Positions 53,921-62,832 of a stretch of 64,000 nucleotides of DNA are shown here, piece after piece. The notes beneath the pieces are model-generated. The model did no database searches. It was given only the letters and a program-made list of their open reading frames with translations, and was not told where the DNA came from. Position 1 is the first letter of the stretch, and each line of letters opens with the position of its first letter. This DNA is from an uncultured Pelagibacteraceae bacterium (GTDB lineage Bacteria; Pseudomonadota; Alphaproteobacteria; Pelagibacterales; Pelagibacteraceae), in assembly GCA_902592265.1 (NCBI GenBank), contig CACJDV010000003.1, positions 1 through 64,000 on the forward strand, given 5' to 3'. The position numbers were made by a program, and so were the translations under genes.

Positions 53921-54874
53921 TTATATTTTAACTTTATTTAAAGCATTGTTTTTAAAAATATTTGCTTCTCTTATATATCTCCTAACCATTTGAGATGTTT
54001 TATGACCTGTCATTGCCATAATACTACGTTCGTCAGCACCGGACTCTGCGGCAACAGTTGCAAAACCTGATCTTAAACTATGTCCTGCAAAATTTTTATT
54101 TTCTATTCCTGCTGAATTTAAATACTCTTTCATTAATAATACTACTGATTGGTCAGTTAATCTTTTATCTGTTAAAGTAGAGCCTTTAGAAAATCTTCTA
54201 AAAATGGGTCCAGATTTAATTTTAGAAATTTCTAACCATTTTTTTAGATTAACAATTGGGCAATAGGTTTCATTAGTGAAATAGGGTAGTCCTTTAATCA
54301 TTCCTTCACCAAATTGATCGGTTTTTGATCTTTTGATAGTGATTTTAAGCCCTTCAGGTACAAATTCTAAATCTTCATGATCAATTGAAATAAGTTCTGT
54401 TCGTCTAAAGCCACCTCCAAATCCAATTAAGATTATTGACTTATCTCTAAGCTTTTTAATATTTTCAATTTTTTGTTCATTTATTACATTAATTATAGAT
54501 TTTAAATGATTGATTAATATAGGTTTTTTACCTTTTTGAATACTTCCTTTCATCCTTCTTATTCCCATTAAGTTTTCGATAATGATCGGATGTTTTGTAT
54601 CTAGATAATGCCCTTTTAGTTTATGAACCATGCTAATTGATACTAGCCGTCTTCTTATAGTGCTTATTTTGCAATTTTTAGAAAGATGCGTGAGGTATAA
54701 AGAAACTATTTTAGGCTCTGAAGGTAAAGATATCAAACCATGTTTCACACAAAAAGCTCCAAAATCTCTAAAGTCTGATTTATATGCTCTTAAAGTGTTA
54801 TTAGCTTTAGAGCTTTTAAGATTATTTAAAGTTGCTTCATATAATGATTTTAGGTCTGTTGTTAATTCATTCAT
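53921..54874 (-). CDS. Tyrosine recombinase / integrase
   Basis: 317 residues: an N-terminal SAM-like core-binding domain (about 1-110) and the catalytic domain. Catalytic residues are visible: R158 (FRRTEL), K184 (KRSKTDQ), H265-x2-R268 (HSLRSGF), H291 (TGHKTS) and Y300 (VRRYIR), so it looks active. It is not XerC/XerD-like in its N-terminus, and it sits at the right end of a tRNA-flanked glycan cassette. Probably a mobile-island integrase. Confidence 0.92.
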   Translation of the reverse strand: MNELTTDLKSLYEATLNNLKSSKANNTLRAYKSDFRDFGAFCVKHGLISLPSEPKIVSLYLTHLSKNCKISTIRRRLVSISMVHKLKGHYLDTKHPIIIENLMGIRRMKGSIQKGKKPILINHLKSIINVINEQKIENIKKLRDKSIILIGFGGGFRRTELISIDHEDLEFVPEGLKITIKRSKTDQFGEGMIKGLPYFTNETYCPIVNLKKWLEISKIKSGPIFRRFSKGSTLTDKRLTDQSVVLLMKEYLNSAGIENKNFAGHSLRSGFATVAAESGADERSIMAMTGHKTSQMVRRYIREANIFKNNALNKVKI

Positions 54875-55189: not shown

Positions 55190-55226
55190 ACATTTAATAA
55201 ATACTATTTGTTAAGTTATTGATGAA

Positions 55227-55391
55227 TTAAGAGGCAACTCTTAACTGGCCAATTGGAGAAAAGCCGAGAGGTACAATTCCAGGGGGCAGAAAGCTTCACA
55301 GAGCATCGCTGAACATGTGAAGCGGGAGGCATGGCGGTAGCGCATCAACGACGTGCCAAAACAACTGTTCTTTGCACCCTTAAAAGTGCAA
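55227..55391 (+). ncRNA. Candidate structured RNA (or folded DNA site), GC-rich
   Basis: In a window of roughly 30% GC, the 150 bases from 55231 are about 53% GC without a supported coding frame. Strong hairpins follow one another: TTAAGAG-GCAA-CTCTTAA (55227-55244, GNRA tetraloop), GCTTCACA...TGTGAAGC (8 pairs, 55293-55323), GGCATG...CGTGCC (55328-55357 region, with one G-U) and TTGCAC...GTGCAA (55372-55391). The block ends 22 bases before the ogt ATG. It does not match tmRNA, RNase P, SRP or 6S RNA by eye. It could be a cis-regulatory leader of ogt, an independent RNA, or a hairpin recombination site for the adjacent integrase. Confidence 0.5.
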
Positions 55392-61301: not shown

Positions 61302-61381
61302 TGTGCCAGGATTAATACTATTAATAAGATCAAAGTCAAATTGATATTTATATTGTTTTAAGCCTTTTTTTTGTTATATTG

Positions 61382-61427
61382 ATATAGCCGATTTGTTCCT
61401 ATTGCGGGCTTACAGCTAAAAAGGAAA
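61382..61427 (+). promoter_or_regulatory. SAM-II riboswitch-like aptamer
   Basis: The architecture matches SAM-II: stem P1 AGCC (61386-61389) with GGCT (61407-61410), loop bases TTCCT (61396-61400) pairing with AGGAA (61422-61426) as a pseudoknot, and the conserved ATTGC and GCTAAAAAGG core. SAM-II elements lie upstream of methionine-synthesis genes in alphaproteobacteria. Here it precedes a SAM-V-like element and metY, so high SAM should lower metY expression. Identified by eye. Confidence 0.78.
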
Positions 61428-61445
61428 TCTTTTACAAACTCGGTA

Positions 61446-61499
61446 GGCATTTGAACTATATTGTGCGCCTTGCATAAAGCTAAAGCACTAAAAAAGGAG
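61446..61499 (+). promoter_or_regulatory. SAM-V riboswitch-like aptamer overlapping the metY ribosome site
   Basis: GGC (61446-61448) pairs with GCC (61467-61469), GTGC (61463-61466) with GCAC (61485-61488), and the core GCTAAAGCACT is as in SAM-V, which shares its binding pocket with SAM-II. The 3' part runs into AAGGAG (61494-61499), the metY ribosome site, so SAM binding could hide it and block translation. SAM-V is known mainly from marine bacteria, including Pelagibacter upstream of metY. Confidence 0.85.
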
Positions 61500-61503
61500 T
61501 AAT

Positions 61504-62832
61504 ATGAGTAAAAAAAGAAATAATCCTGAAACCATTGCCATACATGGTGGTGATTATAGAAGTGATCCAGCAACTAATGCTGTTGCTGTTCCAATATATA
61601 GAACAACATCATATCAATTTCAAAATACTGAGCATGCTGCAAACTTATTCGCGTTAAAAGAATTTGGTAATATTTATACTAGGATCATGAATCCTACAAA
61701 TGATGTTTTAGAAAAAAGAGTAGCAGCATTAGAAGGTGGATTATCTTGTGTAACAGTTTCATCTGGACAAACAGCATCAAGTTTTGCAGTTCTAAATGTT
61801 GCTCAATCAGGTGATAATATTGTAAGTTCTACAGATCTTTACGGTGGAACAGTTTCATTATTTACACATACGTTGAGTAAACTTGGAATTGAAATAAGAT
61901 ATGCCGATCCAGGTGATCCTAAAAACTTTGAAAAGGCAATAGATAATAAAACCAGAGCTTTTTATGGTGAAACATTACCTAATCCATATTTAAGAGTATT
62001 CCCTATCAAGGAAGTTTCTGATATTGGAAGAAAGTATAATATTCCACTGATAATGGATAATACAGCTGCCCCAGTAATATGTAAACCAATAGAACATGGA
62101 GCAGCTGTTGTAATACATTCATTAACAAAATATATTGGTGGACACGGAACTGCTGTTGCAGGAAGTATAGTTGATAGTGGTAACTTTGACTGGACCGCAG
62201 ATCCTAAGAGACAACCTTTATTTAATGAGCCTGATGCAAGTTATGGAGGTGTAGTTTGGGGAAAAGCTGTACCAGAATTAACAGGAGCTAATGTACCTTT
62301 TGCAGTCAGAGCAAGAGTTTGTTTACTCAGAGATTTAGGTTCAGCGTTAGCACCAGATAATGCTTTTGCAATAATTCAAGGTCTTGAAACAGTAGCTTTA
62401 AGAATGAAGCAACATTGTGAAAATGCTGAAAAAGTAGTTAATTTCTTAAAGAAACACAAAGAGGTTACCAAAGTTATATATTCAACAGAACATGAAAAGA
62501 AGATTGCTGATCGAGCTAAACAATATCTAAAAGGTGGAAATGGACCAATGATTGGTATTGAACTCAAAGGTGGCATTGAGGCTGGGAAAAAATTTATTGA
62601 GTCTTTAAAAATGTTCTATCATGTAGCTAATATTGGTGATGCAAGAAGTTTAGCTATACATCCTGCTAGCACTACTCATAGTCAATTAAATGAAAAAGAG
62701 TTGGCAGCATCAGGTGTTACCCAAAGTTATGTTAGACTTTGTATAGGTATCGAACACATTGATGATATTATTGATGATTTAGATCAAGCTTTAAACAAAT
62801 CCTCAAAAGGAAATTTAAAAGCTGTCAGTTAA
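61504..62832 (+). CDS. metY: O-acetylhomoserine sulfhydrylase (MetY)
   Basis: PLP enzyme joining sulfide to O-acetylhomoserine to give homocysteine; 442 residues of the Cys/Met metabolism family. N-terminal TIAIHGGDYRSDPATNAVAV, YTRIMNPTNDVLEKRVAALE, and the PLP lysine K209 in HSLTKYIGGHG. The extended C-terminal half with GDARSLAIHPASTTHSQL is MetY-like rather than MetB/MetC-like. Preceded by AAGGAG inside a SAM-V aptamer, with a SAM-II aptamer further upstream. Convergent with ctaA, overlapping by 8 bases. Confidence 0.93.
   Translation: MSKKRNNPETIAIHGGDYRSDPATNAVAVPIYRTTSYQFQNTEHAANLFALKEFGNIYTRIMNPTNDVLEKRVAALEGGLSCVTVSSGQTASSFAVLNVAQSGDNIVSSTDLYGGTVSLFTHTLSKLGIEIRYADPGDPKNFEKAIDNKTRAFYGETLPNPYLRVFPIKEVSDIGRKYNIPLIMDNTAAPVICKPIEHGAAVVIHSLTKYIGGHGTAVAGSIVDSGNFDWTADPKRQPLFNEPDASYGGVVWGKAVPELTGANVPFAVRARVCLLRDLGSALAPDNAFAIIQGLETVALRMKQHCENAEKVVNFLKKHKEVTKVIYSTEHEKKIADRAKQYLKGGNGPMIGIELKGGIEAGKKFIESLKMFYHVANIGDARSLAIHPASTTHSQLNEKELAASGVTQSYVRLCIGIEHIDDIIDDLDQALNKSSKGNLKAVS

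Follow-up and report, generated by a model that had tools for sequence, protein, structure and literature searches.

We found that the metY leader of a SAR11 bacterium carries two unlike riboswitch aptamers in a row, a compact SAM-II-type pseudoknot predicted to bind SAM (element 1) and a SAM-V pseudoknot, which may be coupled through a strand-exchange helix that we named P0. The window, i.e., the whole 64-kb stretch of DNA analyzed, comes from a 1.02-Mb SAR11 (Pelagibacteraceae) genome. Judging from the sequence, we are highly confident of the anatomy of this leader, namely the two aptamer folds, the strand shared between element 1 and P0, the lack of a terminator, and the fixed placement of P0 relative to SAM-V. 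The best reading of this arrangement is that the metY mRNA is the target of both SAM aptamers, as opposed to a split in which one controls termination and the other translation. The metY gene is divergent from rplM, and the features of its leader are as follows.

61353..61358, + strand: predicted −35 box TTGTTT, 16 nt from the −10 box; 101 relatives conserve TTGNAA in this position
61375..61380, + strand: predicted −10 box TATATT, with the start site expected at 61386-61387; (TG)NTANAA is conserved in 101 relatives
61386..61426, + strand: element 1, compact SAM-II-type aptamer; 61.3 bits with model R1, helices kept in 34 relatives, core equal to the bhmT SAM-II core
61387..61394, + strand: P0 5' strand GCCGAUUU, used in element 1 by both P1 and the third strand
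61427..61436, + strand: G-poor linker with AUCUUUU only and no terminator
61436..61502, + strand: SAM-V aptamer; RF01826, 85.4 bits, pairs kept with compensatory changes
61437..61444, + strand: P0 3' strand AACUCGGU, flush with SAM-V P1; AAAUCGGU in most relatives
61496..61499, + strand: GGAG, predicted from the sequence as the Shine-Dalgarno, in the 3' end of SAM-V
61504..62832, + strand: metY, O-acetylhomoserine sulfhydrylase; TIGR01326, 572.9 bits, above the cut-off

The initial annotation had proposed a SAM-II-type and SAM-V tandem at metY, with a gap of about 20 bases and with the second aptamer overlapping the ribosome site. Both elements are indeed present at this place, 19 nt separate the end of element 1 from SAM-V P1, and GGAG lies inside the SAM-V match. 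It had also remarked that the type was already described in marine alphaproteobacteria, which is right for the tandem as such (PMC9481103).

The second aptamer was matched by RF01826 over its full length (61436-61502, + strand), with 85.4 bits against a gathering score of 41 (E 1e-12). Its pairs are P1 (61445-61448/61467-61470), P2 (61461-61466/61485-61488 plus 61490-61491), and P3 (61472-61473/61479-61480), all of which are 100% paired in 34 relatives, with both-sided changes. The Rfam score, the pseudoknot covariation, and the place beside the metY start codon together identify it as SAM-V, and its position over the ribosome site predicts control of metY at that site. We took as 'Ca. Pelagibacter ubique' HTCC1062 the genome (G026, same genus as the window) whose SAM-V positions match the published intergenic coordinates of that strain. 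The window aptamer is the same as the HTCC1062 metY SAM-V (PMC6061858, PDB 6FZ0), at the orthologous locus (L033).

Element 1 has the H-type P1/P2 layout and the ligand core of a SAM-II pseudoknot. P1 is short, with 3-4 bp formed by GCC/GGC (61387-61389/61407-61409) plus A61386-U61410; the third strand AUUU (61391-61394) lies within GAUUUG; P2a is UCC/GGA (61397-61399/61423-61425); and P2b is UUGC/GC[U]AA (61402-61405/61415-61416 plus 61418-61419), with a bulged U at 61417. The core GCCGATTTGNTCCTATTGC occurs once in the 64 kb at 0 mismatches, while 0.03 occurrences are expected with up to 3. The ligand-core blocks (the U's of the third strand, UUGC, the bulged U, and AAA) are the same as in the HTCC1062 bhmT SAM-II, from which element 1 differs by its 3-4 bp P1 and its short L3. 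The metX SAM-II (PDB 2QWY) likewise has the core GAUUU...UUGC...GC[U]AAAAAGG and a short P2a. The two differ in placement, in that the metX SAM-II is reported to act on its own Shine-Dalgarno (PMC5352136) and element 1 is about 70 nt upstream of that of metY. By sequence, element 1 is thus a compact SAM-II-type pseudoknot, for which we infer SAM binding.

The helices of both pseudoknots were kept in 99.9% of cells in 34 relatives, and compensatory changes occurred in both elements, in element 1 from G-C to A-U in P1 and from U-A to A-U in P2a. The conservation of the pairs in close relatives, on which the initial annotation had made its proposal depend, therefore holds. Compact elements of g3/g6 have another P2a sequence, e.g., UAUCA/UGAUA, which is still complementary. 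Relatives gathered via SAM-V show no variation in the core that contacts SAM, in P2b, or at the bulged U.

The check with Rfam models that had been suggested succeeded for SAM-V and failed for SAM-II, since RF00521 gave no match to element 1 (61386-61426) at E<=10. The same search of the HTCC1062 bhmT SAM-II (L011), which binds SAM with a KD of 1.2 µM according to PMC5069961, where the value is cited, also reported nothing. Because the model misses this validated aptamer as well, we did not count its silence against a SAM-II identity of element 1. Our covariance model R1 scored element 1 at 61.3 bits (E 4e-14), a score that is not independent, as the window copy is among the 21 training rows. 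Trained on compact elements only, R1 also detects, at other loci, elements that pass the gathering score of RF00521 (L193, L194, L335, and L338). RF00521 itself scores canonical SAR11 SAM-II copies (L011, L030, L036, and L063) below the cut-off or not at all; surveys based on it therefore undercount them, and Rfam can be said to miss SAR11 SAM-II elements. Matches to TUG1_1, snR93, and SNORD89 over the leader were far below their cut-offs, and we took them as chance.

We collected 188 distinct compact leaders, 154 of metY and 34 of mmuM, including both HTCC1062 genes. As the pattern used for this set fixes part of the core, we claim core conservation from the SAM-V-anchored set only. When SAM-V loci were gathered regardless of element 1, almost every metY and mmuM leader of the genus had the element upstream, and of the 201 genomes of the genus that were searched with R1, 82 had copies. 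The named genomes among the matches listed for the exact core all belong to Pelagibacteraceae or Pelagibacterales, and a search for the exact core pattern on viral contigs found none. SAM-V accompanied 193 compact elements and was not recognizable beside 4; conversely, five metY leaders of the genus that lack SAM-V have no element 1.

A second compact SAM-II-type and SAM-V tandem is present in the genome of the window, outside the window itself, before mmuM (L002; G000:C13:21455-21575), with a weaker P0-like pairing. Other arrangements also occur within the genus. In L040 (G180:C3), a canonical SAM-II with a terminator replaces the compact element before metY, and there is no P0 word; in L045 and L046 (G093 and G164), the SAM-V of the metY leader is divergent and is not preceded by a SAM-II-type element.

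The linker was found to end in a strand complementary to the first 7-8 bases of element 1 (GCCGAUU / AAUCGG(U/C)), which defines P0. In the window, this duplex reaches −10.4 kcal/mol (p 0.003). P0 was significant (p<0.05) in 84 of 86 metY leaders, with a mean of −10.1 kcal/mol vs −2.9 kcal/mol for shuffled linkers, and in none of the controls (0 of 35 canonical tandems; 0 of 68 SAM-V leaders without a compact element). Because the leaders are related, we also counted sequence clusters, 13 of 15 of which were positive vs 5% by chance. The partner words vary by lineage (AAUCGGU, AAUUGGC, and UUCGGC) and stay complementary; pair 1 is A-U rather than G-U/G-C in L034 and L169, pair 3 is U-A rather than C-G in L168, and pair 4 is A-U in L069. 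RNAalifold and column-based pair counts on a MAFFT alignment detected no P0 covariation, which is limited by the fact that the 5' strand is also a nearly invariant aptamer core. In many mmuM leaders it is the third strand that is paired, more weakly (AUCAAUC with GAUUUGAU), and several of these are not significant alone.

P0 takes up both the 5' strand of P1 and the SAM-contacting third strand, and so P0 and the SAM-bound fold are mutually exclusive, while P2 of element 1 is compatible with either. In the nested ensemble P0 dominates, with a median probability of 1.00. In 139 of 143 metY leaders, its 3' strand stops exactly 1 nt short of the SAM-V GG, whereas anything from 10 to 20 nt separates this strand from element 1, which indicates that P0 is anchored to SAM-V. 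At base −1 of SAM-V, U is common in relatives and can extend P0 onto the first P1 base; the window has A.

We then considered how P0 might connect the two aptamers. Our tentative reading, somewhat short of an even chance, is strand exchange, with element 1 coupled to SAM-V through P0. With SAM, P1 and the SAM-binding triplex would lock up the 5' strand of element 1 (GCC and the AUUU third strand); when SAM is absent, this strand would pair with AAUCGGU at the linker end, and the P2 stem may stay nested inside. Since P0 ends exactly where SAM-V P1 begins, element 1 would most likely tune how SAM-V, the aptamer over the Shine-Dalgarno, folds. As to direction, our guess is that P0 hinders the OFF state of SAM-V and that SAM-bound element 1 permits it, so that the response to one ligand would be steeper. 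Against this direction, P0 stacked flush on SAM-V P1 could just as well aid SAM-V folding. Against coupling as such stand three mmuM leaders, L171 (−), L281:1772 (+), and L314 (−), which keep the compact element where SAM-V is decayed or unrecognizable. The L314 leader also retains an 8-base complement to the third strand, GAUCAAAU. The fuller model, a cooperative switch in which a SAM-II-type aptamer gates an unlike SAM-V aptamer for one ligand through a shared strand-exchange helix and with no terminator, seems to us possible and on balance doubtful.

Two more direct routes to the ribosome site were rejected. Shine-Dalgarno exposure in nested folds was the same with P0 formed as with element 1 locked (0.53 vs 0.55); no effect of P0 on the ribosome site is thus visible, and the idea that P0 opens or closes the Shine-Dalgarno was dropped. 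The linker is not enriched as an anti-Shine-Dalgarno at metY (−2.4 vs −2.6 kcal/mol for shuffled sequences), and little so at mmuM.

Element 1 may instead set the amount of mRNA and leave SAM-V alone, a reading that we consider rather unlikely; here the P0 formed at low SAM (8-9 bp) would shield the 5' end from decay, or the SAM-bound state would favor Rho or pausing. The promoter lends it some weight. A −35/−10 pair 16 nt apart is common to relatives, and as 6 nt lead from the end of the conserved −10 to the G of GCC (101 relatives), the metY mRNA probably starts at the first base of element 1. The −35 box is a weak match to the consensus, and a generic promoter scan of the window gave no consensus match. 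Such a start makes a role in 5'-end stability possible, in line with the rise of metY and mmuM mRNA by 7.1-fold and 6.1-fold in sulfur-limited HTCC1062, which PMC5069961 reports while assigning both genes a translational SAM-V only. However, mRNA levels can also fall when SAM-V alone represses translation, the linker is on the short side for a Rho site, and the fixed distance between the P0 3' strand and SAM-V is left unexplained.

Nor does the leader fit well the known bi-mechanism tandem, in which the first aptamer acts on transcription, as the initial annotation had suggested for metY. In the Pelagibacter ubique bhmT tandem (PMC11508383, PMC9481103), as at the window metY and in the same organism group, a SAM-II-type aptamer lies 5' of a SAM-V over the ribosome site of a methionine gene. 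The bhmT SAM-II, however, has a P1 of 5-6 bp and is followed by a terminator hairpin with a U tract, whereas the window metY has a P1 of 3-4 bp, a short linker without a terminator, and a P0 abutting SAM-V. According to the review PMC9481103, a terminator stem follows SAM-II in every one of the original 120 tandems. Canonical tandems of the family and the compact ones of g3/g6 likewise have a GC-rich hairpin and then a long U tract between the aptamers. In the window leader, a terminator scan found 0 terminators, in agreement with the earlier remark that only ATCTTTT follows the first aptamer, and single-sequence folding energy was no better than that of shuffles (z 0.82). Linkers in the genus are 17-28 nt long with 1% G, and the longest T run in short-linker compact leaders is 1-6, mostly 1-4, unlike the runs of 9-10 in the terminator-bearing g3/g6 compact leaders. 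Thus, SAM-II-type directly upstream of SAM-V is found at the window metY, and the intrinsic terminator stem between them, a defining part of the bi-mechanism model, is not; transcriptional action of the first aptamer is not borne out. A weak, unrecognized terminator, e.g., the SAM-stabilized P2 stem plus AUCUUUU, would restore the mechanism by which the known tandems work (PMC9481103), and U makes up 62-83% of positions 4-6 after P2a; with C and A interrupting the linker, and given the scan and the T runs, we find this improbable. We consider it very unlikely that the leader serves to form P0 and that element 1 is a SAM-II remnant, which lost its terminator and is kept as a 5' stem insulating SAM-V. 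Such a stem would have no need for an invariant P2b, bulged U, and SAM-contacting core, even though P0 dominates the nested ensemble and linker-mediated SAM-II inactivation has been reported for the bhmT tandem (PMC11508383).

Canonical tandems (L011, L028-L030, L049, and others) showed a complementarity of their own, in which the 5' arm of the terminator, CGCUUUAG, pairs without mismatch as the reverse complement of CUAAAGCG within the SAM-II P2 strand. Judged by sequence, this would make a ready antiterminator and possibly the cause of the linker-mediated SAM-II inactivation reported in PMC11508383. Pairing of the terminator arm with the linker end in these tandems was also tried and rejected (0 of 35, not above chance).

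The SAM-II/SAM-V tandem itself is already known, and what we provisionally regard as new is the compact SAM-II-type element at metY and mmuM. In HTCC1062, it precedes SAM-V at both metY (L033) and mmuM (L034). The available parts of PMC2704228 and PMC5069961 assign these genes SAM-V only, assign SAM-II to bhmT and metX, and do not mention the compact elements, within a comparison that excludes Poiata et al. 2009. On this basis, a second putative SAM sensor is added to two HTCC1062 genes that those parts describe as under translational SAM-V only, and the compact element offers a testable reason for the 6-7 fold changes of their mRNA. The leader also provides a natural case for mutual influence between two unlike aptamers of the same ligand, a question left by the bhmT tandem (PMC11508383). 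The glycine riboswitch, a tandem with one expression platform (PMC9481103), similarly joins two aptamers, one ligand, and one leader with possible coupling; its aptamers are alike, whereas those of the window metY are of different classes and their coupling is predicted. If true, strand exchange through P0 would make a cooperative switch of unlike aptamers that has so far been overlooked in abundant ocean bacteria.

Elsewhere in the window, we noticed a further structured RNA, of the IMES-2 family (RF02035), at 55220-55359 on the + strand (144.3 bits). It lies between an integrase-like ORF (53921-54874, − strand) and an ORF resembling a methylated-DNA cysteine methyltransferase; the GTG listed as the start of the latter overlaps the 3' end of IMES-2.
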